Below, in pieces: positions 2,774-26,713 of a stretch of 26,824 bases of DNA. Position numbers and translations under genes: made by a program. The stretch lies in IMG/VR virus record IMGVR_UViG_3300020411_001140, positions 1 to 26,824 of that record; one strand, written 5' to 3'. Positions within the stretch are counted from its first letter, which is position 1; each line of letters opens with the position of its first letter. The DNA comes from a virus. Below the pieces are notes generated by a model. That model was not told the origin of the DNA, made no database searches, and saw only the letters and a list, made by a program, of their open reading frames with translations.

Positions 2774-4910
2774 AATAATGTTCTTTCAAACTACTATTCA
2801 TTTGTCCGAACCTCAAGTATTGCATGTCTTCGGACTTCGAATTTTTCACAATGATTGGCCTATCGGGATATTTCTTCCCATACTCTATAATTTTACTTAC
2901 ACCTTTACTCTCACCAACGACTTTATTCCATCGTTGATATTTTTCTCTTCCCCATTTACACTGGTCGTATACTTCTGGGGATACAACAAAAATAGGTGTT
3001 CCTGTATCTTCTACAGACTCTTTCATCAAGGCGAACATTTTTGATGCACCACCACCGATGACTCTGTTACCAAGAACTGCGTCTTTCCAGTTTTCACCTG
3101 TATGTTTCTTCCATACCTTCATCAAAGGTTTTGCCTGTTTGGAAGGAAATGCAAACTGGTCAGACTTCTTATTGTATTCTATGTCACCATACTTTTTGTG
3201 TCGTATGATGATGTCATCCATCTTACCGAAAACCTCGCCTGGTATTCTCAGTTTCTTGACCATCTGTTCTATCTTGTCTCTGTCAAGACCTGTCCTGTTA
3301 GCACCGATACCACCATAAGCACTCATTGGTGCCTCACTCAAGTCTTCTTTGAGTTTCTTGACCCAACTTGGATTGATTTTCTGTTTCTTCATGTATTGAA
3401 CAACTCGTTGTGAACCCAAGAAATGTTTGATAGTAGGTCTACAGTCAGCCATCTTACCATCTTCTTTTTCTATCTGGTCTATCTGGTCGAACAGTGAGTC
3501 ATCACCGATGTATTGATAAATGACTTTTGCCGCGTCCTTGGCTGGAATAGGTCGTTGGAATAACTTTTGTATTGCCGCTACGTCCTCTTTGGAGTCAGGT
3601 AATGCCCAAGTTCCTTCTGTTATCATTGGAAGACCTTGTGCCCTATCCTCGACATACATATTCAACTCAAACTTACCACTGTCCATTCCATAGATTTGAA
3701 CGTGGAGTCTCTTACGAGTTGGTTTACCAGATGGGTATTCATATCCACCTAATGAGTAAGAGTTGGTCTTACCCTTCGATGGTTTCTTTGGACCCATGTT
3801 GACTTTCTGGAACCACTCTTCTGCATCCACTTCAAACTTATGTTTTTTGAGTGCGTGGTTTAGAGCTACCTCAAACGCCTTGGACATAGTCGGATGGTAG
3901 ACTTCGTAGTCACTACCTTTCTTTGCCTCTTTGAGGTCTTCTCCATCTACGTCTTTCGCTCTCTCTTTCTTACTTATGGCGATCGCGGCTTGTTGTTTTG
4001 GGTTTGCAGCCTCGTTATAGTCTTCTTCAGTCATGATGGTTGTTTCTGTCAGACTGAGAGTTTCTGATATCATGTTTCTCGCAAATGCATCGAGACATTC
4101 TACCAAATGTAAATATTCGTCTTCTGTGAACTCTTCTACAACGAGACCAAAGTTCGCACAGAACTCATTGACTTCGTCAAAGGCCATCTGAGCATATTCC
4201 TCAGACTCAAATAGAAGATTCAGAGAATTGTCAACTGATTCTGTCTTCATATCTTTCTTCCTCTTGAATGGTGGGAACTGGTCTGTTCCTTTTATGGCTC
4301 CAGTACCGACAGCATTGGTTGGTGTTTCCTCTAAAGGTTTCTCACCGATAAGTGAGTGAACGAAAGCCTTTAGGTTGTTCTTTTCTAGATATTCGTCATC
4401 CATACCTGCCTTCTCCATTTCCTTTCGAAAATCATCTGGGTCCATTTTTGACTTGTCCCACATATCAGACAACTTCTTGAGAAGTGCCTCGTTGGTTTTA
4501 TCATCAACCGCTGCTTCATACAGGGCCTGTAGGACATCTTCTGTTAACCAATCTGGAAGGTGGTCAACATTACTGTAATGTTCGAATGACTCCGATAGAT
4601 ACTTTGGGTCATCCAACCTTTCGGTTTCTTCTTTCATCAATAACGCAGTTGCGGCCGCAACACCAGCAATCATAGAGCCACCGCCAGGGATGAAGGACAT
4701 CAACTTCTTGATATTCCAGATAACCCTATCAAGAAGAGTATATGCCTTTTTCTCTTCTTCGGTCTCAAGTTCTTTCATCTTCTTGAGTACCTTACCCTTT
4801 TTGTCTATGATGCCTAGTTTAAATGCTTTCGTCTTCTCGAACGGCGTCGCCATCTTCTTGATGAAGAAGAATGCCGTTGCTATATTGAAAGCCCCTGTCA
4901 TCAGTCCCAT
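2736..4910 (-). CDS. Large mosaic virion-like protein, possible polyprotein
   Basis: 724 residues with several apparent modules. The N-terminus, after the start MGLMTGAF, carries a block (TPFEKTKAFKLGIIDKKGK, then a helix and SFIPGGGSMIAGVAAATAL) that I remember from large structural proteins of marine T4-like phages. Acidic linkers follow. Two segments start right after (L/I)-x-E|A sites: D-L-K-E328|A-K-K-G-S-D and D-L-S-E526|A-P-M-S-A-Y, giving two C-terminal pieces of about 198 residues each. The first contains SYSLGGYEYPSGKPTRKRL, the second AYGGIGANRTGLDRDKI. This spacing suggests a precursor cut by a prohead-type protease, an inference. The start at 4910 lies 92 bases inside the upstream gene, in another frame. 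Confidence 0.7.
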   Translation of the reverse strand: MGLMTGAFNIATAFFFIKKMATPFEKTKAFKLGIIDKKGKVLKKMKELETEEEKKAYTLLDRVIWNIKKLMSFIPGGGSMIAGVAAATALLMKEETERLDDPKYLSESFEHYSNVDHLPDWLTEDVLQALYEAAVDDKTNEALLKKLSDMWDKSKMDPDDFRKEMEKAGMDDEYLEKNNLKAFVHSLIGEKPLEETPTNAVGTGAIKGTDQFPPFKRKKDMKTESVDNSLNLLFESEEYAQMAFDEVNEFCANFGLVVEEFTEDEYLHLVECLDAFARNMISETLSLTETTIMTEEDYNEAANPKQQAAIAISKKERAKDVDGEDLKEAKKGSDYEVYHPTMSKAFEVALNHALKKHKFEVDAEEWFQKVNMGPKKPSKGKTNSYSLGGYEYPSGKPTRKRLHVQIYGMDSGKFELNMYVEDRAQGLPMITEGTWALPDSKEDVAAIQKLFQRPIPAKDAAKVIYQYIGDDSLFDQIDQIEKEDGKMADCRPTIKHFLGSQRVVQYMKKQKINPSWVKKLKEDLSEAPMSAYGGIGANRTGLDRDKIEQMVKKLRIPGEVFGKMDDIIIRHKKYGDIEYNKKSDQFAFPSKQAKPLMKVWKKHTGENWKDAVLGNRVIGGGASKMFALMKESVEDTGTPIFVVSPEVYDQCKWGREKYQRWNKVVGESKGVSKIIEYGKKYPDRPIIVKNSKSEDMQYLRFGQMNSSLKEHYYVDIGPEQTTEQ

Positions 4911-5307
4911 AGAGTTCCCTTAGTACAACTTCTTTTGCGTTATCTTCGATTTGTATATTACCTACATTTATGTTCTGACCATTGACACCCAAAACTTTTC
5001 TGGGACATCTGTTTGCCAGTAACAAAAATATCTTCAGTAGAGACCAGTTGTCAGGTGGTATTTTAAAAAATAACAACCTCTGTGCGGCCTCTAGTCTGAA
5101 GACATTGAAGTACATAATGACATGGTTCAATAACAGTCGGGACTTTAACTCTCCCTTCTTTCTGTAGTTATTGAAATGTCTATTAATGTATTTTGTTTTA
5201 TTCACATCCTGCTGGAACTCTCTGGTTGTTGTATGCTCCTTCATTATGTAATGTTGGAATGCAAACAACAACCAGTTTTCGTTCGTCAGGTTCTCAAAAC
5301 GAACCAC
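4819..5307 (-). CDS. Conserved phage hypothetical (MVRFENLTNENWLLFA family)
   Basis: 162 residues from a GTG at 5307, five bases after the stop of the fibre-like gene. The order of conserved blocks (RFENLTNENWLLFA, YINRHFNNYRKKGELK, LLNHVIMYFNVFRLEAA, LLFFKIPPDNWSLLK, then a C-terminal IEDNAKEVVLREL) matches, from memory, a conserved hypothetical family of marine T4-like phages whose members end near LREL or LREI. Here the frame runs 31 codons further and overlaps the next gene by 92 bases, so the tail may be overprinted or reflect a sequence error near 4915. The protein looks all-helical and soluble. Function unknown. Confidence 0.7.
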   Translation of the reverse strand: MVRFENLTNENWLLFAFQHYIMKEHTTTREFQQDVNKTKYINRHFNNYRKKGELKSRLLLNHVIMYFNVFRLEAAQRLLFFKIPPDNWSLLKIFLLLANRCPRKVLGVNGQNINVGNIQIEDNAKEVVLRELYGTDDRGFQYSNGILLHQEDGDAVREDESI

Positions 5308-12370: not shown

Positions 12371-12377
12371 GTCTTAT
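12371..12377 (-). promoter_or_regulatory. T4-like late promoter motif (CTAAATA)
   Basis: The minus strand reads CCTAAATAAG here, 19 bases before the ATG of the ligase-like gene, overlapping the stop codon of the gene before it. Late promoters of T4 have TATAAATA, and CTAAATA-type versions are described for related cyanophages. As only one such motif sits clearly in front of the virion-like block, the call is tentative. Confidence 0.35.
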
Positions 12378-13153
12378 TTAGGGTCTCCTGCGACGTTCCA
12401 AAAGAGGTTGACTTTCGAAGGATTATACAGTTCCTTCATAGGTTTCCAGACCTTGGCGTCGTATTCACGGGCCGATGGGAATGGTGGTAAGTCTTCTTCT
12501 TTACAGGGTTGATTGTACTTATAGGATACTGGATGGACTGTTGCATTTCCAGCCTCTTCTTGGTCCATCTTATGTCCAGTTTGAACACAATGAAACTCAG
12601 AGTCAGGCCAAGCCATCTGTAAACCACGTGTGAGTGTACCAGATGAACCAACTGTCCATACAACTTCGGGGATGATTGGTAGGTTTCGAGCTACCTTGAT
12701 GATAGCTCCTAGTGTGATGTCATGTTCCAAACCTATCGGAACATTCATTCTTGTGGTAGGACTTTGTTCGACATACTTTTTACAGTGTGCCTTGGTGACG
12801 GATAACATACCCATCTTGACCCAAGTGATTTTACCACCCAAGTCGGAATAGTATTTTTGATGTGGTGTGGGTTCTTTCCTGTCAGCGTAAAACGAGTGTG
12901 CTATCTTTCCATACTTTCTACACAAGTATGCAAGTGAGATGTTTCCCCAACCAACGGAGTTACTCCCTCCATAACAAAACTCATCTACTGGTGTGTCACG
13001 AATCAGTTTATCAGCGAACCTGACTTTTGAACCACCTTCTTGTAGGTCATCACGAACTACAACGATTCCATCGTAGTCTACGAGAACTGGGAAAGGGTTC
13101 GGGTCTTCCCAGTCTTTGACTAGGTCGAGATAATCGTCAGGCCCAAAAAGCAT
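12374..13153 (-). CDS. PLP-dependent enzyme-like protein, fold type II
   Basis: 259 residues, ATG at 13153 with AGGATTAG before it, overlapping the methyltransferase end by 17 bases. Residues 33-46 (VRDDLQEGGSKVRF) resemble the lysine segment of the ACC deaminase/D-cysteine desulfhydrase group, with K43 as the candidate PLP lysine. GGSNSVGWGNISLAY (62-76) matches the substrate/phosphate-side loop (GGxxSNH-like), and TVGSSGTLTRGLQ (167-179) the serine/glycine-rich phosphate-binding loop. Known members have about 330-350 residues, so this is a shortened version. Possible roles are amino-acid breakdown or, given the methyltransferase next door, addition of an amino acid to a modified base as in some phage DNA hypermodification paths. 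The motifs are visible; the reaction is not. Confidence 0.6.
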   Translation of the reverse strand: MLFGPDDYLDLVKDWEDPNPFPVLVDYDGIVVVRDDLQEGGSKVRFADKLIRDTPVDEFCYGGSNSVGWGNISLAYLCRKYGKIAHSFYADRKEPTPHQKYYSDLGGKITWVKMGMLSVTKAHCKKYVEQSPTTRMNVPIGLEHDITLGAIIKVARNLPIIPEVVWTVGSSGTLTRGLQMAWPDSEFHCVQTGHKMDQEEAGNATVHPVSYKYNQPCKEEDLPPFPSAREYDAKVWKPMKELYNPSKVNLFWNVAGDPK

Positions 13154-14417
13154 CTAATCCTGTATCGAACAATGGTTGTCGTTCTTCACCTTTACGAAAA
13201 CACCAGACATTCTCAATGTAACACTTTTGCATAAACTCTGTCAAGTCTTCTTTTGTCTCAGTGACTTTTGGTCTCTGGGAATACCTCATTCCTAACTGAC
13301 CAATGAAGTGGTCCTCAAGTGTATCAATGAGGTCATCACCTGCCCTGTATCGTTTTCCTTTCACGACTGGGTCAAGGATGTTTGTCATAAGATAACCACC
13401 TTCGGACAAAGAGTCAAATGAATTCTGTGCAACTGGTAGATAGAAGTTGTCTCTCCAACTCTCGTAACTGTCATGTTTTTTCCACGACTGGTCTTGTTCG
13501 TCATCTCCACCTTCTCCATACCTCTCCGTTGCGTAGTAGGGTGGACTTGTGAATGCAACATCGACATTGTCAATCTCATCCCAAGGTATGTTTTCAGCAC
13601 CTGACCTGTAGATGGTGACAGTCTTATGACCCACGGAACGAAAGACATCATCCTGTATGTCGATGACTGGTTCGGAACCTAACAGTTTCTCATACCTACG
13701 AACCATGTCAATGTACTTTATCCAGACATTTCCGTTCGGGTCACAACCAACATACTCTTTTGCATTTGGTGTGGTGTAAAAACCTGTCAGTCTGTCACCC
13801 CAACCACATGATGTGTCAAGAACCTTGGTTGCATTTGTCATCGAGTAGATACATTTTGCAACTGGTGGTTTGAACTGTGTGGCCAGATACGAACCAATAC
13901 GAAACGAGGCGATATAGGTTGATACATCGACTGACCCATCACTCAAACTACGATAGAAATACTTGAACAGTTTTGCCATCTTGTCTGGATGTTTGGTCCA
14001 AGTCTCGTGAGGTGAAGGTCCAAAAGTAGAACCACACTTCATTCTCTCTTCGTACATATCGTAATCAGAGATGATATTGAAATGAGCTGGTGAGTCAATG
14101 ATACCCAGACCATGACTTGAGTATGGTCTTCGATAGTCACTGAACTTTTCCAGAACTTCTCTTCCCTCTTGACCTTTTGGTTTCAGATACTCCTTGACAT
14201 CTTTTGCAAGAAGTTTGAAGAACATATCGTCAGCCTTGAATGAGTTCTGTATCGATATTTTTCTGGGGTAGTTTGGTTTGTTGTCAAAGATGACATTCGC
14301 TATAGTCTGTAGTATCTCATCATCTTCATATGAGTTTCTCAACAGTATGAGTTCATTCTTGGGTATGATAGGGAGACCATCCCTACAGAATAGTTCTATT
14401 TTACCACGTAATGTCAT
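13137..14417 (-). CDS. DNA N4-cytosine/N6-adenine methyltransferase with clamp-tail-like C-terminus
   Basis: 426 residues, ATG at 14417 overlapping the gene before it. Motif I, the SAM-binding loop, is V-L-D201-T-S-C-G-W-G-D-R209; the catalytic motif IV is T290-S-P-P-Y-Y295, as in amino-methyltransferases acting on adenine N6 or cytosine N4. An unrecognised helical region of about 190 residues precedes motif I and may bind DNA or set specificity. The last six residues, LDAFWA, are identical to those of DNA polymerase gp43 in this window although the codons differ. This suggests binding to the sliding clamp and methylation of newly made DNA. No restriction partner is seen, so self-protection against host restriction is the likely role. 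Confidence 0.85.
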   Translation of the reverse strand: MTLRGKIELFCRDGLPIIPKNELILLRNSYEDDEILQTIANVIFDNKPNYPRKISIQNSFKADDMFFKLLAKDVKEYLKPKGQEGREVLEKFSDYRRPYSSHGLGIIDSPAHFNIISDYDMYEERMKCGSTFGPSPHETWTKHPDKMAKLFKYFYRSLSDGSVDVSTYIASFRIGSYLATQFKPPVAKCIYSMTNATKVLDTSCGWGDRLTGFYTTPNAKEYVGCDPNGNVWIKYIDMVRRYEKLLGSEPVIDIQDDVFRSVGHKTVTIYRSGAENIPWDEIDNVDVAFTSPPYYATERYGEGGDDEQDQSWKKHDSYESWRDNFYLPVAQNSFDSLSEGGYLMTNILDPVVKGKRYRAGDDLIDTLEDHFIGQLGMRYSQRPKVTETKEDLTEFMQKCYIENVWCFRKGEERQPLFDTGLDAFWA

Positions 14418-14995
14418 TTGATTTTTGCGAATGATTCTGCTCGGAGTGCCGCTCTATGGAATAGTTCTGACTTTACCTCTGGAATCCTTGCCTGTACAAA
14501 CCTGTCCAGAACGTCTGACTGTGTGACATCACCAGTTGCAACATAGTCATAGGCAAGTTCCGATGAGTATGACTCAAGTATGATGGGGTTGACGTTTGAA
14601 AACAGTTCGTCATCTACTTTCATGTAGACAGAAATGATTGAAGTGTACTCGTGGAGTATCACCTTTGTGAAATCGTGTTCAAGGTTAGCCAATACCTGTA
14701 CAGGAATGGTAATAGCTCTTGAGTAGATTTGAGGAGAACAATAGAATGTGACAGAGATGTCACTGTCTGTAGAAGTTCCATCCATGTAACAAGCATTCTC
14801 TTCCAGTTCTGAACTCTCTCTTACACTGAACTTAGTAGGGAGAGCCAGATAGTCTGTGAGTTGACTTGAAATTTTATTCTCAACGATAGTCCAGTCCACG
14901 TGACAGTTCTGGACGAAATGTTGCCAGACCTGTTTTGAGTGTCGTATACTTGCGTTGAGTTTCTCTATTCTTTGTTCTTCGGTTAGGTAGTCCAT
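14414..14995 (-). CDS. Hypothetical protein with zincin-like HEYTS motif
   Basis: 193 residues, ATG at 14995 overlapping the gp41 stop region. Helix-rich N-terminus (TEEQRIEKLNASIRHSKQVW), a beta-rich middle, and a helix V112-I-L-H115-E116-Y-T-S followed by SSELAYDYVA. The H-E pair in a hydrophobic helix recalls zinc metallopeptidases (HExxH), but the third ligand is missing: the fifth position holds isoleucine (HEYTSI). It is either a degenerate peptidase or a chance likeness. It lies between the helicase and the methyltransferase and is probably expressed with them. Function unknown. Confidence 0.6.
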   Translation of the reverse strand: MDYLTEEQRIEKLNASIRHSKQVWQHFVQNCHVDWTIVENKISSQLTDYLALPTKFSVRESSELEENACYMDGTSTDSDISVTFYCSPQIYSRAITIPVQVLANLEHDFTKVILHEYTSIISVYMKVDDELFSNVNPIILESYSSELAYDYVATGDVTQSDVLDRFVQARIPEVKSELFHRAALRAESFAKIK

Positions 14996-16383
14996 TCACC
15001 AAATTCTCGTTTAGATGTCATCCGATTATCTGTTCCGCGGTCGAATGCAGGAGTATCATCCTCTTCTTCCTTGGTTGCTGGTTGTGTAATGATAGACTGG
15101 TCCTGTACGTCATACAGACGCATCTTAGACCTATCAATACCAATTACAAACCTACGATTTGTTGAAGGGTCACCATAGCGATTCTTCAACTGTTTCCCAA
15201 CTATCATTCCTTTCTCATCCAACTCTTCACTGGATGTGAGAGCCAAGAAAAAGTCAGCAGTTGCGGGAAGTCCAAATGACTCTGAAGTATCTCCCAAGTC
15301 AACGTCACTGGACATAAAACCAGTTCTGTTTACCTGAGTTGCCGTAACAATGGGTAAGTTGTTCTCAACGGCAAAACCTCTGAACTCTTCAGCGATAGAC
15401 TTTATCAGAGTGTACATATTGGATGCGTTGGCTCCTCTGATACGAGAGGATGCACAAATATTCAGATAATCTATGTAGATGATGTCTGGACCAAAGTTCT
15501 TCTTTATCTTCAATTCGTTTAGAAGATGTCGGAAGTGTCCTACGTGAGCAGCTGCGGTCGGGTATTCTTTAATGATGAGCTTGCCCTTTACCATCTTATT
15601 TATTTTATCGACCTTTGATGTGTATGTTTCTTTCGGAAGGTCACGTAAGTCTTGGAGTTTCGTGTCCAGAAGGTTTGCGTCTATTCTCTCAGCAATTCTT
15701 TCTTCTGACATCTCCATTGTGATGTAAAGAACGTTGTGTCCCATATTTAGGTTTGACGCTGCACAATGACACATGAACAGGGACTTACCTACACCTGTTC
15801 CAGCCATGATAACATTGAGTGTCTTGTTCGGGAGACCACCATCTGTTATCTTGTTCATGTACTCAAGGTCAAATGGAATTTTGACTTCCTTCTTGTGATA
15901 GAAGTCGTACCTGTCTTCCCAGTCTTCAACGTAGTCGTGACCTATCTTGGAATCAAACGATACTGCAAGTGCATCAGACAGGAGTTTTGGAATGGCCCCT
16001 CTGTCCATGTCTTTGGACTTTCCATCGTAAATGTTGATGGACTCCATGATGGAGTTGTAAATGGCCTTTGACTGACACCAGTTTTCAGTCTCTTCCATCA
16101 ACCAGTCTTGGTTGACAGTTTCTTGAGGTTCAAAGAGTTTGTTGATAGCTTCAACTGAACCACGAAAGAGGTCTTCCGACATTCCCTTCTTGTTGTTCAG
16201 GTCAATGACCAAACTCTCCAGACTTGGTAGGTTATTATACTTGAGGAGAAAAGCTTCTATTTCACTGAAGACTTGTCTTTCGATGTGGTCAGCAAAATAT
16301 TCTTTCTTGATGAACGGAAGAGCTCTACGTGTGAACTCTTCGTTAGTTACTAACTGTCTCAGAATTGTATTCTCTAGTCGCAT
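14983..16383 (-). CDS. 41: Replicative DNA helicase gp41 (DnaB-type)
   Basis: 466 residues, near T4 gp41 (about 475). The Walker A loop is M-A-G-T-G-V-G-K-S (193-201) followed by the RecA-like core VLYITMEMSEERIAERID, Walker B-like FGPDIIYIDYLNI and the sensor stretch PIVTATQVNRTG. The N-terminal 150 residues are the helical domain used for hexamer formation and primase contact. It unwinds DNA 5' to 3' on the lagging strand and works with primase gp61, whose gene starts about 14.7 kb downstream. The ATG at 16383 is inside the preceding gene; the reading frames overlap by 41 bases. C-terminus is acidic with a short tail (REFGEWTT). Confidence 0.95.
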   Translation of the reverse strand: MRLENTILRQLVTNEEFTRRALPFIKKEYFADHIERQVFSEIEAFLLKYNNLPSLESLVIDLNNKKGMSEDLFRGSVEAINKLFEPQETVNQDWLMEETENWCQSKAIYNSIMESINIYDGKSKDMDRGAIPKLLSDALAVSFDSKIGHDYVEDWEDRYDFYHKKEVKIPFDLEYMNKITDGGLPNKTLNVIMAGTGVGKSLFMCHCAASNLNMGHNVLYITMEMSEERIAERIDANLLDTKLQDLRDLPKETYTSKVDKINKMVKGKLIIKEYPTAAAHVGHFRHLLNELKIKKNFGPDIIYIDYLNICASSRIRGANASNMYTLIKSIAEEFRGFAVENNLPIVTATQVNRTGFMSSDVDLGDTSESFGLPATADFFLALTSSEELDEKGMIVGKQLKNRYGDPSTNRRFVIGIDRSKMRLYDVQDQSIITQPATKEEEDDTPAFDRGTDNRMTSKREFGEWTT

Positions 16384-16702
16384 TCACTTTCGCCATAATG
16401 TCGATTGCAATGTTTACCACAATTTCCTCAAACTCTTCCTTGTGGTACTGGTCTGTAAACTCTTCTACTGGAAGATGGTCGGCTACTGCAAGAATGTCGT
16501 AGTCGACCGCGAATGGGAATGAACCATCTTCGTTTGGTTGTCTATCATCATATCCCATCGATTTGATTTTAAAAACTACACCTTCGTACTTATCATGTCT
16601 AAGTAAAATACAAGGTTCATTATCCTCATCGTCTACTGGGTTTTGGACCCAACTCCAATCGAGTCTAGTTTCCGTTTGGGTCGCTTGCTTGGGCGAACTC
16701 AT
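16343..16702 (-). CDS. Conserved hypothetical between uvsX and gp41
   Basis: 119 residues from the ATG at 16702, chosen because GAGG stands nine bases upstream; earlier in-frame ATGs at 16711 and 16726 lie deep in uvsX. After a polar head the sequence has beta-strand-like blocks ([43 protein letters not shown]), then a C-terminal helix ([18 protein letters not shown]). A small gene at this site is common in marine T4-like phages, as far as I recall, without a known function. Given its place between recombinase and helicase, a role as loader or regulator in replication is possible but unproven. Confidence 0.65.
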
Positions 16703-17753
16703 GGTCTGCATCCTCTTGGTTTTCATTGTTCAGTTCATAGTCTTCTGTTCCATACTTGAACTCTTGAGAAACATTCTCTTCGATTTTACCCATGACTTCT
16801 TCTGTAAAGTAGGCCTCTGGGTTTTTCATTATCTCTTTTGCATAGACTTTCTTCTCACCAATGTCGACACGAGAACCTGCCTGTTTCCAGATTCCATAAC
16901 CAACTGCGAAGTCTATCATACCATGCCACTTGGACAGACCACCATTGAATGTGATGAGGGTTTCAACCTTTTTATTTTCTACTGTGATTCTAGACTTGTA
17001 GTTACGACAAGTAACGATATTACCAAGTTGTTCTGTTCCATCCTTGAACTTCTTCTTGGTCAGGAAAAGAATGTTTGACGCAGCGAACTTGAGTCCAGCT
17101 CCACCACCCATTTCTTTTGTCGGAACATATGCACCAACAACTTCGTAAGTGTGGTTGGTCATAAAGATAGGAATACCAGCTGCACCAGCCTTGAGAGTCA
17201 GGACACGAAATGCTCCACGAATGAGTTGAGCTCGTGTCATATCTCTGGTATCTTTTCCATCTGAAATATCTTGGACTTCTTTTGATGTGGATAACATACC
17301 CAGTGAGTCAAGACAGATGACAAGAGGTGGTCTGTCATCCTTTGGTATCTCAAGATGTTTCTCAATGATTTTGATACACTGGTTTCTGAACTCTTGAATA
17401 GTTGTCACTGGAATGATGACCATACGAGAGGAGTCAATACCTCTCTGTTCAATCATCAACTTACTTATGGCTGACTCACTCTCAAAGTATAAAACCCCAC
17501 CAGTTGGATTAGCATCGAGAAATGATTTGACCATCCCCAAAAGGAAGAATGTCTTTCCAGTAGCTTGTTCTCCAGCGATAGCCGTAATTTTGTTTCCCGC
17601 GAAGCCCCCATAGAGACTCCCACTAACAAGAGCGTTAAGGGCATAACTACCAGTATCAATAAAGTGGGAAACATCACCTGTACCCACACCTTCACTAACC
17701 AACGAGGCGTACTCATTGCCAGTCTCCTTGACTAAGTCGTTTAAATAATTCAT
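16665..17753 (-). CDS. uvsX: UvsX recombinase (RecA-like)
   Basis: 362 residues, close to T4 UvsX (391). Walker A is G61-E-Q-A-T-G-K-T68, and the surrounding [19 protein letters not shown] is typical for UvsX. Walker B is in [18 protein letters not shown], followed by the loop region with [18 protein letters not shown]. The protein coats single-stranded DNA and carries out strand exchange for recombination-dependent replication and repair. The C-terminus is acidic ([14 protein letters not shown]), which in RecA-type proteins often tunes DNA and partner binding. The ATG at 17753 overlaps the stop of the 42-residue ORF as ATGA. A perfect sigma70 promoter 130 bases upstream can drive it independently of gp43. 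Confidence 0.95.
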
Positions 17754-17878
17754 TTCTTTTTCATTTCCAAAACCCTCCAGTTGTAGGGTTGTTCATTAAA
17801 AAATGCGAACATCCTGTCCCACGAGTTGAGGTCATACTCAATCCACGCATTTGGGTCATTTGGATGTTGTACTTTCAC
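17750..17878 (-). CDS. 42-residue ORF between gp43 and uvsX (start uncertain)
   Basis: The frame ends in an ATGA overlap with uvsX and stays open upstream to 18010, but that part lies inside gp43. After the gp43 stop, the possible starts are the GTG at 17878 (used here) and a TTG at 17911. From the GTG the protein begins [20 protein letters not shown] and ends WRVLEMKKK, a well-formed small protein. If the promoter at 17911-17883 is used, the RNA would start at about the GTG itself, so this would be a leaderless gene or is read only from the longer gp43 message. I recognise no family. Confidence 0.5.
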
Positions 17879-17882
17879 GTGT

Positions 17883-17911
17883 ATTATACCATCAAATTGG
17901 GTGAATGTCAA
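17883..17911 (-). promoter_or_regulatory. Perfect sigma70-type promoter for uvsX and downstream genes
   Basis: Minus strand TTGACA (17911-17906), a 17-base spacer and TATAAT (17888-17883), all consensus bases present and ideal spacing. It starts four bases after the gp43 stop codon. Predicted RNA start near 17876. It would allow the recombinase, helicase and following genes to be made early without reading through the long polymerase gene. Confidence 0.85.
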
Positions 17912-17915
17912 ATCG

Positions 17916-20423
17916 TTACGCCCAGAATGCGTCGAGTGTCGAGACCTCTTCAAGGTTCCAACCGATTTTTTCCACCAATTCTTCAAGAGGCTTCCGAAAG
18001 GTTTTTTCATACATAATATTTCTGTCTACGTATTTGTCCAGTCCAAAACCCTCTGGGAGTCCATCAACCATAGCAATGACATTCTCGTGTATTGGGTTTG
18101 GTAAGGACAAATAGACAAACTTGATTTTCTCACCTTCCTGTATCTTCGCGAAGGTCTTATCTAGTTTCTTCTCTTTTAGATAGTGGTTATAGAGAAGTGA
18201 ACCACGGACGTGCATCGGACATCCTTGTTTGTAGATTTCTCTACGTGAACCATACTTTTCCAGACCTTTGACAGACCTTGGAAATGCAATGTTCTCAAGA
18301 GGTTCTTGATTGAAAGTCTCACGAAACTCCTTGTTAAACTTCTGTAGGTCGGCCTCTGTTTTTGTCATAATGAGAAGATAAGCCTCCTTCAGTTTGTCAC
18401 GACACAATTCTGGTGTGGATGAACGAACAGACTCCAAACCCATAACCTTGAGTTTGGGTTTCTCATACTGAACACCTTCGTTATTCCATACGTTGAGAAT
18501 GTATCGTTTCTTTGCAGTCCAAACACCTCTGTCAGAAATACCTTCTCGTTTCATCACCATTTTGTTTTCGAACGCATTGGTGTACTCATAGAGTTCGTGG
18601 TATGCCTTGTCGAGAACTTGTTGGAATGGTCCTGAACCAACCTTGTCCAGATATTCAACAACGACTTTCTTCTCCACATCAAATGGGACTTCTTCGTATG
18701 TCTTCTCAACGAGTGGACCACAATTTACATAGATGGAGTCTGTGTCGGCTGCAATGATGAAGTCAGTCTCAGAGTTCAACATAGTTTGTATCGTCTTGTT
18801 GATACTGTTCTCAGCAGTCCTGACTGACAGTTGACCTGACATCGTGATAGCTTCTGCAATGTCTCTGTCATAGTATCGAAAGTATTCGTTCCCGATCGCA
18901 CCATAAGCTGAGTTGAGAGATATCTTACGAGCCATCTGCATGTTGTGATAGTAGGATATCTGTTTGAGTAGAACAGGGTCTTTGTCATTCTCATACAGTT
19001 GTTGAGTCTCCAACATTTTCTTCTTATACTTCACTCTGTCATTGTAGAACATCTGAAGTATCTCAGGAAGAAAACCCTGTTTGTCCGTTCGAAACATCGC
19101 ACCATTTGGTGTGACAGTACATCCCTCTGGAACTTCATACTCTCTGTCCAACATTGCTTGGACTGTAGGTGGAGTAGGAGTCATTCCTATCTTGGTCTCA
19201 GGAGAGATGTTGTATTGCATGATGAGATGAGGATACAGACTGTTCAGGTCGAAGGACATTACCCAGTCATGCATTCCCACGTGTGGGTCTTTGACATAAG
19301 CACCTTCCACAGCACCCAGACTCGATTCTTTCTCAAATGACTTTCTCATAGGAGTTACAATCTTCTTTCTCCAGAGATAGTCATATAGTTTGTTGTCCCA
19401 CATCTGCATCTGGGAGAAACAGGCATTTGGGTTACACTTCATCGAGTTGGTCAGAATGACAGCATTCTCAAGAAAACGATTCTTGTCATCCATACGAACA
19501 ACCAGTTCAACGTCACGAATGTTGTAGTCGATGAACTTCTTGTAGTCTCGTTTGTGGAGTGTGTAAAGGTTTGAGTATTCGTCAAATGACAGTTTACCTT
19601 CTCCCAGTTCTACGTGGGCGATGTTGTCAAGTCGATATGACTCTTGAGCTGAATATGTGAACCTCTTGTAGATTTCAAGATAGTCAAGAGCATTGACACC
19701 TTCAATAGTTACCTCATCGAGAAACTGACCACCCAGTTGGAAGTTGGTTTTGTAGACTCGATTCCAAGGTGACAGTTTCAGACAGAACTTCTCATCGATG
19801 ATACGTGAGATTCTGTTATACAGATAGGGAAGGTCAAAGAAACGTGTGTTCCAACCTGTGACGATGTCACATTCTGAACTACGAAACCACATCACAAAGT
19901 CGTGAAGGAGTTCTGACTCTGACTCAAACTTTTTATAAACTACGTTTGGTTGGGTTGTCTCATACTCTTGATTACCCCAGACATAATAGATGTCATTCAG
20001 GTAACAAGTGATAGAGATGACTGGATAGAGGGCCTTGTTTGCCTCTGGGAAACCTTCGTCTGATGAAACCTCGATGTCAATGAAAACGACATTGAACAGG
20101 TCAAAGTCGACTGGGGTTTCTTCTGGAAAGAACTCTGTCAGCCATTGTTGCATCCATCGTTCGTAACCATAGATTTCAAAACCTTCTATATTGTCGTGTT
20201 TTTGTCTCCAGTCCATCAGTTCTCTGGTGGACTCAAACTTTAGGGGGGATACAGGTTTTCCGTCAATGGTTCTCCACTGGGATTTACCTGTAGTATCTGA
20301 AATGTAGAGTGTAGGGGAAAATTGGTTTATTACCTTAGTTGCTCTCTGTCCCTTTCTAATTCCCCTAGCACAAATCTTCTCGCCTATTTTTACAATGTTT
20401 GTGTAAAAATCCAAGCTATTCAA
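17916..20423 (-). CDS. 43: DNA polymerase gp43 (family B, T4-type)
   Basis: 835 residues, slightly shorter than T4 gp43 (898). The proofreading exonuclease shows F-I-D116-I-E118 (ExoI), VTGWNTRFFDLPYL (ExoII) and YNIRDVELV (ExoIII). The polymerase shows motif A FDLNSLYPHLIMQYNISPE (391-409), motif B RKISLNSAYGAIGNEY (499-514) and motif C A-A-D560-T-D562-S, with the catalytic aspartates intact. The C-terminus ends in LDAFWA; in T4 and RB69 the corresponding tail binds the sliding clamp gp45. The ATG at 20423 overlaps the M15 peptidase gene by eight bases. No intron or intein is seen. Confidence 0.97.
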   Translation of the reverse strand: MNSLDFYTNIVKIGEKICARGIRKGQRATKVINQFSPTLYISDTTGKSQWRTIDGKPVSPLKFESTRELMDWRQKHDNIEGFEIYGYERWMQQWLTEFFPEETPVDFDLFNVVFIDIEVSSDEGFPEANKALYPVISITCYLNDIYYVWGNQEYETTQPNVVYKKFESESELLHDFVMWFRSSECDIVTGWNTRFFDLPYLYNRISRIIDEKFCLKLSPWNRVYKTNFQLGGQFLDEVTIEGVNALDYLEIYKRFTYSAQESYRLDNIAHVELGEGKLSFDEYSNLYTLHKRDYKKFIDYNIRDVELVVRMDDKNRFLENAVILTNSMKCNPNACFSQMQMWDNKLYDYLWRKKIVTPMRKSFEKESSLGAVEGAYVKDPHVGMHDWVMSFDLNSLYPHLIMQYNISPETKIGMTPTPPTVQAMLDREYEVPEGCTVTPNGAMFRTDKQGFLPEILQMFYNDRVKYKKKMLETQQLYENDKDPVLLKQISYYHNMQMARKISLNSAYGAIGNEYFRYYDRDIAEAITMSGQLSVRTAENSINKTIQTMLNSETDFIIAADTDSIYVNCGPLVEKTYEEVPFDVEKKVVVEYLDKVGSGPFQQVLDKAYHELYEYTNAFENKMVMKREGISDRGVWTAKKRYILNVWNNEGVQYEKPKLKVMGLESVRSSTPELCRDKLKEAYLLIMTKTEADLQKFNKEFRETFNQEPLENIAFPRSVKGLEKYGSRREIYKQGCPMHVRGSLLYNHYLKEKKLDKTFAKIQEGEKIKFVYLSLPNPIHENVIAMVDGLPEGFGLDKYVDRNIMYEKTFRKPLEELVEKIGWNLEEVSTLDAFWA

Positions 20424-25758: not shown

Positions 25759-26312
25759 GACATCCCACCTGTACTACCGAAACCAGCACCATGCTCAGTG
25801 TCACGAGTAGGAGCCTCACCAACCCTCTTGATGTCATACCACTCATTCTGTACCAGTTCTCCCTGACATACTCTATCACGTTTTCGGATTGTGATAGAAT
25901 GTTTGTTTGTATTGAAGACAGGTACGAATAACTCTTGAATATAGTCAGAGTCAATGATACCTATTCCATTGACGAGCATCATTCCCTTCTTCGCTGCGTT
26001 CCCAGACCTTGAGTATAGTCTGACAGAGTATCCTTCGGGAATGTCGAGTATCAACCCAGTAGGTATCAATGCTCTCTCATTCTGATTCAAGACTACTTCA
26101 TCACCACTAACTCGTCTATCACTGCTATCAACTGGTGACCAAACTTTGACTGAGTCATTTGGACCCCAGATTGCTGATAAGTCAAAACATGCCGAACCTT
26201 CGGTAGCAAACTCTATTCTCGACTCATCATGTATTTTATAAAAACCTAGAGTGGGTTTAGATGTTTCCATCATTCTGAGCCCACCTTTTTTCATCTGCAA
26301 ATTTATGTTCAT
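25755..26312 (-). CDS. dut: dUTPase (dUTP diphosphatase)
   Basis: 185 residues from the ATG at 26312, which overlaps the regA stop (ATGA). AAAGGTGG precedes another ATG at 26273, so a 172-residue form is possible. All five trimeric dUTPase motifs are visible: I G-S-A-C-F-D-L; II L-Y-S-R-S-G-N-A-A-K-K-G; III N-G-I-G-I-I-D-S-D-Y with the catalytic aspartate region; IV R-D-R-V-C-Q-G-E-L; V G-A-G-F-G-S-T-G-G. It hydrolyses dUTP to dUMP and PPi, keeping uracil out of DNA and supplying dUMP for dTTP synthesis. It sits beside regA and close to the replication genes. Confidence 0.95.
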   Translation of the reverse strand: MNINLQMKKGGLRMMETSKPTLGFYKIHDESRIEFATEGSACFDLSAIWGPNDSVKVWSPVDSSDRRVSGDEVVLNQNERALIPTGLILDIPEGYSVRLYSRSGNAAKKGMMLVNGIGIIDSDYIQELFVPVFNTNKHSITIRKRDRVCQGELVQNEWYDIKRVGEAPTRDTEHGAGFGSTGGMS

Positions 26313-26713
26313 TTAACACTATTGCCCACATTATATTTTGTTTCAAGTTTCCACTCTGACTTCTCCTTGTATGGGAGTATTTTCAAAGTGTTTATCTGAA
26401 CGACTGGCTCCTCAGTCTTTTTCGGGTCAACCAAGTCACACAGTTTCCATTCTGCCAGAAGGTTTGCAATAGCATTCCTTCTTGCCTGGTCAGTCTCAGA
26501 GAAGTCAGATGGTTTACCATCCAACATAAACAGTTCCTTGAAGTGCACGATATAGTATCTCCCCTGCTTGTGCAGAATGTGACAAGACTGATACAATGTC
26601 TTATCTCGTTTCGATGCTATACCTATTCTTGAAAGTGTTTCTCGTATCTTGAGAAAATCGTCTGACTTTTTTAGTGTGACCTCGACAAACCCATCTATGA
26701 TTTGAGTTGTCAT
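26309..26713 (-). CDS. regA: RegA translational repressor
   Basis: 134 residues against 122 in T4 RegA, with about nine extra residues at the start. The body matches T4 RegA block for block: VEVTLKKSDDFLKIRETLSR, GIASKRDKTLYQSCHILHK, YYIVHFKELFMLDGK, RRNAIANLLAEWKLCDLV, and a C-terminal EWKLETKYNVG. RegA binds AU-rich start regions of early mRNAs and blocks translation, including its own in T4. AGGACTAA stands before the ATG at 26713. It follows gp62 as in T4; in T4 gp43 comes next, while here about 6 kb of other genes lie between. Confidence 0.96.
   Translation of the reverse strand: MTTQIIDGFVEVTLKKSDDFLKIRETLSRIGIASKRDKTLYQSCHILHKQGRYYIVHFKELFMLDGKPSDFSETDQARRNAIANLLAEWKLCDLVDPKKTEEPVVQINTLKILPYKEKSEWKLETKYNVGNSVK

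Follow-up and report, generated by a model that had tools for sequence, protein, structure and literature searches.

Why should the DNA polymerase and a putative DNA methyltransferase of one phage end in the same six residues? The question is raised by a 26.8-kb fragment of a T4-like virus (IMGVR_UViG_3300020411_001140, positions 1-26,824; 33 ORFs), the whole of which we refer to as the window. In translation gp43 ends in ...STLDAFWA (full end WNLEEVSTLDAFWA) and the amino-methyltransferase (MTase) in ...TGLDAFWA (full end RQPLFDTGLDAFWA), which confirms the identity of the two ends claimed in an earlier note on this DNA; its further claim that they are differently encoded also holds, codon by codon (CTC GAC GCA TTC TGG GCG in gp43, TTA GAT GCT TTT TGG GCC in the MTase). 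Because the codons differ, a recent DNA copy is an unlikely origin of the common tail. When the whole record is scanned with a degenerate DNA pattern, codons for LDAFWA occur at exactly two places, the ends of these two genes, and the reversed control pattern gives no match; with the composition of the window, ~2e-5 pairs sharing six identical C-terminal residues are expected among the 33 ORFs. For the majority of relatives the tail of gp43 resembles that of the MTase without matching it fully, and, as judged from the sequences, the exact identity in the window is partly a coincidence of variable letters.

The features of interest are collected in Table 1. The order on the minus strand is regA and, further along, gp43, a small ORF, uvsX, a 127-aa ORF, gp41, a 193-aa ORF whose place beside gp41 is conserved in relatives, the MTase, a threonine-dehydratase-like ORF and a DUF6267 protein. 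The threonine-dehydratase-like ORF adjoins the MTase also in two relatives (L003 and L004), and the two genes are perhaps one modification cassette; its ATG sits within the tail codons of the MTase (13137-13157), an overlap missed by the earlier note. The sliding clamp gp45 is not encoded within the 26.8-kb window, whose end falls at regA; gp62, gp44 and gp45 would be expected beyond that end. A gp45-type clamp is encoded by several relatives (L005, L053, L070 and others), and in one relative, whose MTase is 60% identical, gp45 (E=3e-18 to the T4 clamp), gp44 and the MTase stand in a single row.

Table 1. Coordinates of the two tails, the genes that carry them and the neighbouring genes in the window.
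Feature	Position	Strand	Evidence or remark
gp43 family B DNA polymerase	17916..20423	-	phrog_262 E=9e-292, PF00136 E=5e-30; 835 aa, TTG start as listed
gp43 C-terminal LDAFWA, proposed gp45-binding motif	17919..17936	-	aligns with T4 gp43 end SLDFLFG
Amino-methyltransferase (MTase), TSPPY motif, 426 aa	13137..14417	-	PADLOC MTase_II 1e-4
MTase C-terminal LDAFWA, proposed gp45-binding motif	13140..13157	-	translation, homolog conservation
193-aa ORF, no family match	14414..14995	-	upstream of MTase, overlaps MTase start by 4 bases
Threonine-dehydratase-like ORF	12374..13153	-	phrog_7093 E=1e-30; begins MLFGP
gp41 replicative helicase, context	14983..16383	-	phrog_19 E=5e-125
UvsX recombinase, context	16665..17753	-	phrog_97 E=2e-82
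RegA translation repressor, context	26309..26713	-	phrog_242 E=2e-56

The MTase of the window falls below the gathering cut-off of PF01555 (19.5 vs 26.7 bits), as do those of two relatives (L034 and L035), and when the family profile is compared with clear PF01555 members only the motif IV region aligns, with a probability of 12%. NCBIfam holds no name for the protein, and a profile search among solved structures gives no match for the family. Both the catalytic motif [DNS]PP[YFW] and a glycine-rich cofactor motif are present, as TSPPY and DTSCGWGDR, and FTSPPY and DTS.GWGDRL are invariant in 45 homologs; from these motifs and the replication-gene neighbourhood we infer that DNA is the substrate of this putative MTase.

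The motif also occurs in T4. T4 gp43 ends in KASLDFLFG, gp55 in PSLDFLYEAND, and an ORF at 149193-149540, which from its size, its place and the published motif we take to be gp33, in NTLDFLL. As a positive control, the strict pattern matches 4 of the 267 ORFs in T4, and gp43, gp55 and gp33 are among them; the fourth, a 183-aa ORF at 144561-145112 ending in QRSVDVFLG, either matches by chance or represents a further, unknown clamp partner. It is by their C-termini that gp43, gp55 and gp33 bind gp45, and these ends can freely replace one another (PMC2988020); the linker that precedes the gp55 motif is divergent (PMC2988020; PMC7892883). In gp55 of the marine contigs the motif likewise lies near the end (GLEEFMEKDT, GIENFIEEEL, STVEDFVE). 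The motif of the window matches these published gp45-binding ends, in support of the earlier note's prediction that the MTase rides the clamp. The MTase tail resembles them in motif class, C-terminal place, variable linker and occurrence in a phage supergroup that has gp45; the T4 carriers, however, are a polymerase and transcription factors, while those described here are DNA-modifying enzymes whose binding is predicted.

Free variation of the tails among homologs, which the earlier note had named as grounds against its own proposal, is not seen. The tail count and the tree are based on 49 dereplicated full-length MTases, and several hundred further relatives at 40-50% identity occur in marine viral contigs, of which the best 80 of 588 confirmed stretches were kept. 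A motif of the type T-L-[DE]-x-F-[FWL] follows a variable linker in 40 of the 49. Relatives at 88-99% identity to the window MTase keep LDAFWA, those at 59-60% end in GLMEFFV, GLESFFV, STLEDFFV or STLEDFFI, and the pattern L-[DE]-x-F-[FWL] is retained down to ~40% identity though the letters change. Among the 40 tailed proteins the L never changes; F occupies the next hydrophobic position in 34, E or D follows the L in 39, and T or S precedes it in 37. The entropy (0 bits for L, 0.7 for F, 0.8 for T) stays between 0 and 1.2 bits at all motif positions except x, vs mostly 2-3 bits in the linker, which differs in both length and sequence; amid this variation a D, an F and a K/R before the motif are also fairly well kept.

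On the tree of the 49 MTases the tail is found across all deep branches, and the nine tailless proteins amount to three label changes. One of these (L051) looks like a frameshift; the other eight proteins end in RRATLF, ATLPI or SVLPI. The distribution of sequences suggests an old tail with about two real losses. Since two branches have lost or shortened it (ATLF/ATLPI ends), the tail is not essential. A TET-type protein of Caulobacter phage Cr30 (L384:526-1854) ends in GATLF, like the MTase clade that ends in RRATLF, and the gp43 of this phage ends in DLSSLFD; short ends of the GATLF type may represent a shortened form of the motif instead of its loss.

A census was then taken that was not aimed at modification enzymes: all long closed ORFs of the fetched marine T4-like contigs, which are mostly fragments, were tested for the tail. 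The loose pattern was refined partly on these data; the strict pattern is anchored in the known motifs of T4. The first census yielded essentially three tailed families, the polymerase (102/106), the MTase (91/109) and Mom (74/80; PF25680, E=2e-45), with 13 matches among the 1965 remaining proteins. The family sizes are biased because some contigs were fetched through these very genes, a bias that does not extend to the tailed share within a family. After dereplication at 80%, the loose pattern is found in 69/74 polymerases, 26/37 MTases (a count that includes distant paralogs and two homologs outside the T4 group), 12/13 Mom proteins, 12/12 TET/JBP oxygenases, 9/14 TET-associated glycosyltransferases and 37/1870 other genes (Fisher p from 3e-12 to 5e-93; shuffled expectation 1.1%). 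The corresponding figures with the strict pattern are 65/74, 25/35, 10/13, 9/12 and 9/14, with 18/1819 for the others. The background in other genes is thus 1-2%.

Further matches are rare, and comprise a beta-class N6/N4 MTase (L033, STLEGFYD), small HNH proteins, gp55, a few unknowns, TET/JBP oxygenases (NLNDFLGE in Melnitz-1, SLEEFLK in L259) and TET-associated glycosyltransferases (TLENFLND in L090). Searching outward from the TET match led to 80 loci, most of which have gp43 nearby; all closed TET proteins there carry the motif at their end (GNLEDFI, GSLEEFM, SSLDTFFT). In three relatives of the window (L014, L017 and L018) the MTase slot holds a Dam-like D12-class MTase (PF02086, E=3e-20; L014:9129-10025, L017:8702-9607), which stands in for the MTase and its neighbour and carries ATVEDFFVQLQ or STLDDFYVQLQ ~ten residues from its end. 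Two cultured phages show the same arrangement: Methylophilales phage Melnitz-1 (gp43 TLEDFFG, Mom QZI94411.1 TLEGFF, TET ORF at 3899-4942 NLNDFLGE) and Stenotrophomonas phage DLP_6 (gp43 ATLDSFFA, TET AATLGDFFV).

The beta-class MTases were rejected as a tailed group, with one of six representatives passing and two others ending in SPLEEFMK or SPLAEFMK; the C5-cytosine MTase beside TET and the MT-A70 MTase of L022 have no tail. Nor is the arrangement universal even in T4-like phages, since the TET-associated glycosyltransferases of the T-even-type phages Muldoon, KEN39 and BW-1 are tailless. Three contigs (L281:139-6300, L316, L363) repeat a row of gp43, C5-cytosine MTase, TET/JBP and glycosyltransferase, which suggests a full pathway from methyl to hydroxymethyl to sugar within the replication cluster. 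A 181-aa protein of unknown function (phrog_6927; L249:9721-10263) ends in NGLEDFYG and is a candidate new clamp partner. An asparagine-synthase-like protein (L076:8494-9954) ends in SLEKFMGT; if this tail is real, the protein is perhaps an amidating step in base modification.

Outside the T4 group the tail is absent from 14 of the 14 homologs checked in phages. The MTase homologs of Bacteroides phage DAC16, in which no gp43-type polymerase was found, and of Mammaliicoccus phage PMS3 finish precisely with the domain's last strand. Phage Mu Mom and the tailed Mom of marine T4-like phages are members of one enzyme family (PF25680, E=2e-45); unlike the latter, the Mom of the Mu-like phage D108 and eight further homologs outside the T4 group (from Listeria, Staphylococcus, Bacillus, Arthrobacter, Proteus, Enterococcus, Mycobacterium and Pseudomonas phages) stop before the extension that bears the tail. 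The TET proteins of HTVC112P and P12024L, two phages without gp43, have no tail. Homologs from GTDB (L205-L211) were rejected as cellular controls because they lie on phage-like MAG contigs that mostly hold gp43; though labelled bacteria or archaea, these contigs probably come from phages and were binned with other genomes.

The MTase tails are closer to the tail of their own polymerase than in shuffled pairs (p=0.014), and the corresponding value for TET and polymerase is p=0.0016, shared ancestry not being removed in either case; for Mom, with 7 pairs only, the co-variation is not significant (p=0.47). A polymerase tail other than FF tends to be paired with an MTase tail that also differs from FF, as in the polymerase/MTase pairs FW/FW of the window, LF/LF of another clade, and FM and WL in L054; an exception is L053 (gp43 FF, MTase FW).

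We put at about 80% the probability that the last six residues of the MTase are a T4-type sliding-clamp-binding motif, with which the enzyme would modify phage DNA at or after synthesis. Clamp binding by the tailed enzymes is very likely, because the tail occurs on unrelated modifiers against a background of 1-2% and is absent from the fourteen outside homologs; modification at the fork is what we infer from it.

Among the alternatives, the one that survives best, improbable as it is, has the tail docking on the host clamp DnaN and not on gp45. The bacterial clamp motif is QL[DS]LF, which the shape L-[DE]-x-[FL]-[FL] resembles, and one glycosyltransferase outside the T4 group does end in QLEIF. 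In the phages considered here, however, the leading Q is missing, with T, S, N or G in its place, the polymerase of the same phages bears this tail as well, and gp45 is encoded on the larger contigs. The glycosyltransferase in question (L385:1264-2022, TET-associated, Nonlabens phage P12024L) has no T4-type tail; its end, NSNQLEIF, resembles the bacterial DnaN motif and is possibly, by its sequence, a host-clamp version of the same idea.

It is highly unlikely that the tail serves the MTase fold as a structural cap or for oligomerisation and resembles the gp43 end by coincidence. The tail lies just ~15 residues past the last conserved strand, hydrophobic C-terminal ends are able to pack on a fold, and the D and F just ahead of the linker are fairly well kept, all of which a cap would accommodate; against it, the linker varies in length and sequence, tailless homologs are otherwise complete, and the same motif ends folds as unrelated as family B polymerase, Mom, TET/JBP oxygenase and glycosyltransferase, on which the tail has converged. 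Harder still to credit is that a host factor, such as a protease adaptor, reads the tail as a signal for degradation or localisation. Short hydrophobic C-terminal ends can act as protease signals, and the tail could be taken for one of them; its last residue, however, is free to change (A, G, S, E, N, V or absent), in contrast to the conserved L and F of the motif, and T4 gp43, gp55 and gp33 use the same motif for clamp binding. That the codons are instead preserved for the overlapping start of the next gene (12374-13153), whose ATG in the window does fall within those for LDAFWA, can be dismissed almost entirely, as gp43 and the MTase use different codons and the tail persists in relatives where other genes follow the MTase, such as uvsX (L056, L100) or unrelated ORFs.

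Under the clamp-binding reading, the tail peptide would dock in the hydrophobic patch of gp45. Since gp45 is a trimer with three sites, the enzyme could ride beside the polymerase on a shared clamp or use clamps left on the new DNA, and phage DNA would be modified during or just after its synthesis, before host nucleases cut.

Related systems are known. The alpha-glucosyltransferase of T4 binds gp45 in vitro, a result of Sommer 2004 that has been confirmed, and in T4 it is mainly expression, not clamp binding, that sets the level of modification (PMC13216743). This enzyme is, like the tailed ones, a DNA modifier of a T4-type phage, with a gp45 association that is known where theirs is predicted; it differs from the window MTase in having no such C-terminal tail and in belonging to another enzyme family. 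A PIP box links mammalian DNMT1 to PCNA (PMC11371216); in this case a short clamp-binding peptide keeps a DNA methyltransferase at the replication fork, as is predicted for the MTase. DNMT1 is, however, a cellular C5-cytosine MTase without homology to the phage enzyme, and its peptide, of a different sequence class, lies at the N-terminus. The idea of a clamp tail was not found in the literature on phage MTases, Mom or TET, a survey from which subscription papers were largely absent, and earlier notice is possible; the portions of the Melnitz paper reached by term searches make no mention of it.

That at least five unrelated DNA-modifying enzymes in marine relatives of T4 have this peptide in common suggests that enzymes riding the replication machinery chemically disguise the new phage DNA. 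With less confidence, we lean towards regarding clamp tethering in marine T4-like phages as a general device, which most classes of DNA-modifying enzyme (amino-MTases of two or three kinds, Mom, the TET/JBP oxygenase and the TET-associated glycosyltransferase) would have acquired independently; base modification would then be an assembly line on gp45, directly behind the polymerase. The tail is also a simple sequence handle: the strict pattern that recovers three known clamp partners of T4 picks out candidate new ones in uncultured phages, and tailed proteins without an assigned function could include modification enzymes of kinds not known so far. The idea is testable, since Melnitz-1 and DLP_6, which have the arrangement, are in culture. 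If it is true, a problem of timing would be solved, with the modifying enzyme already on the clamp before host nucleases reach each copy of the DNA.
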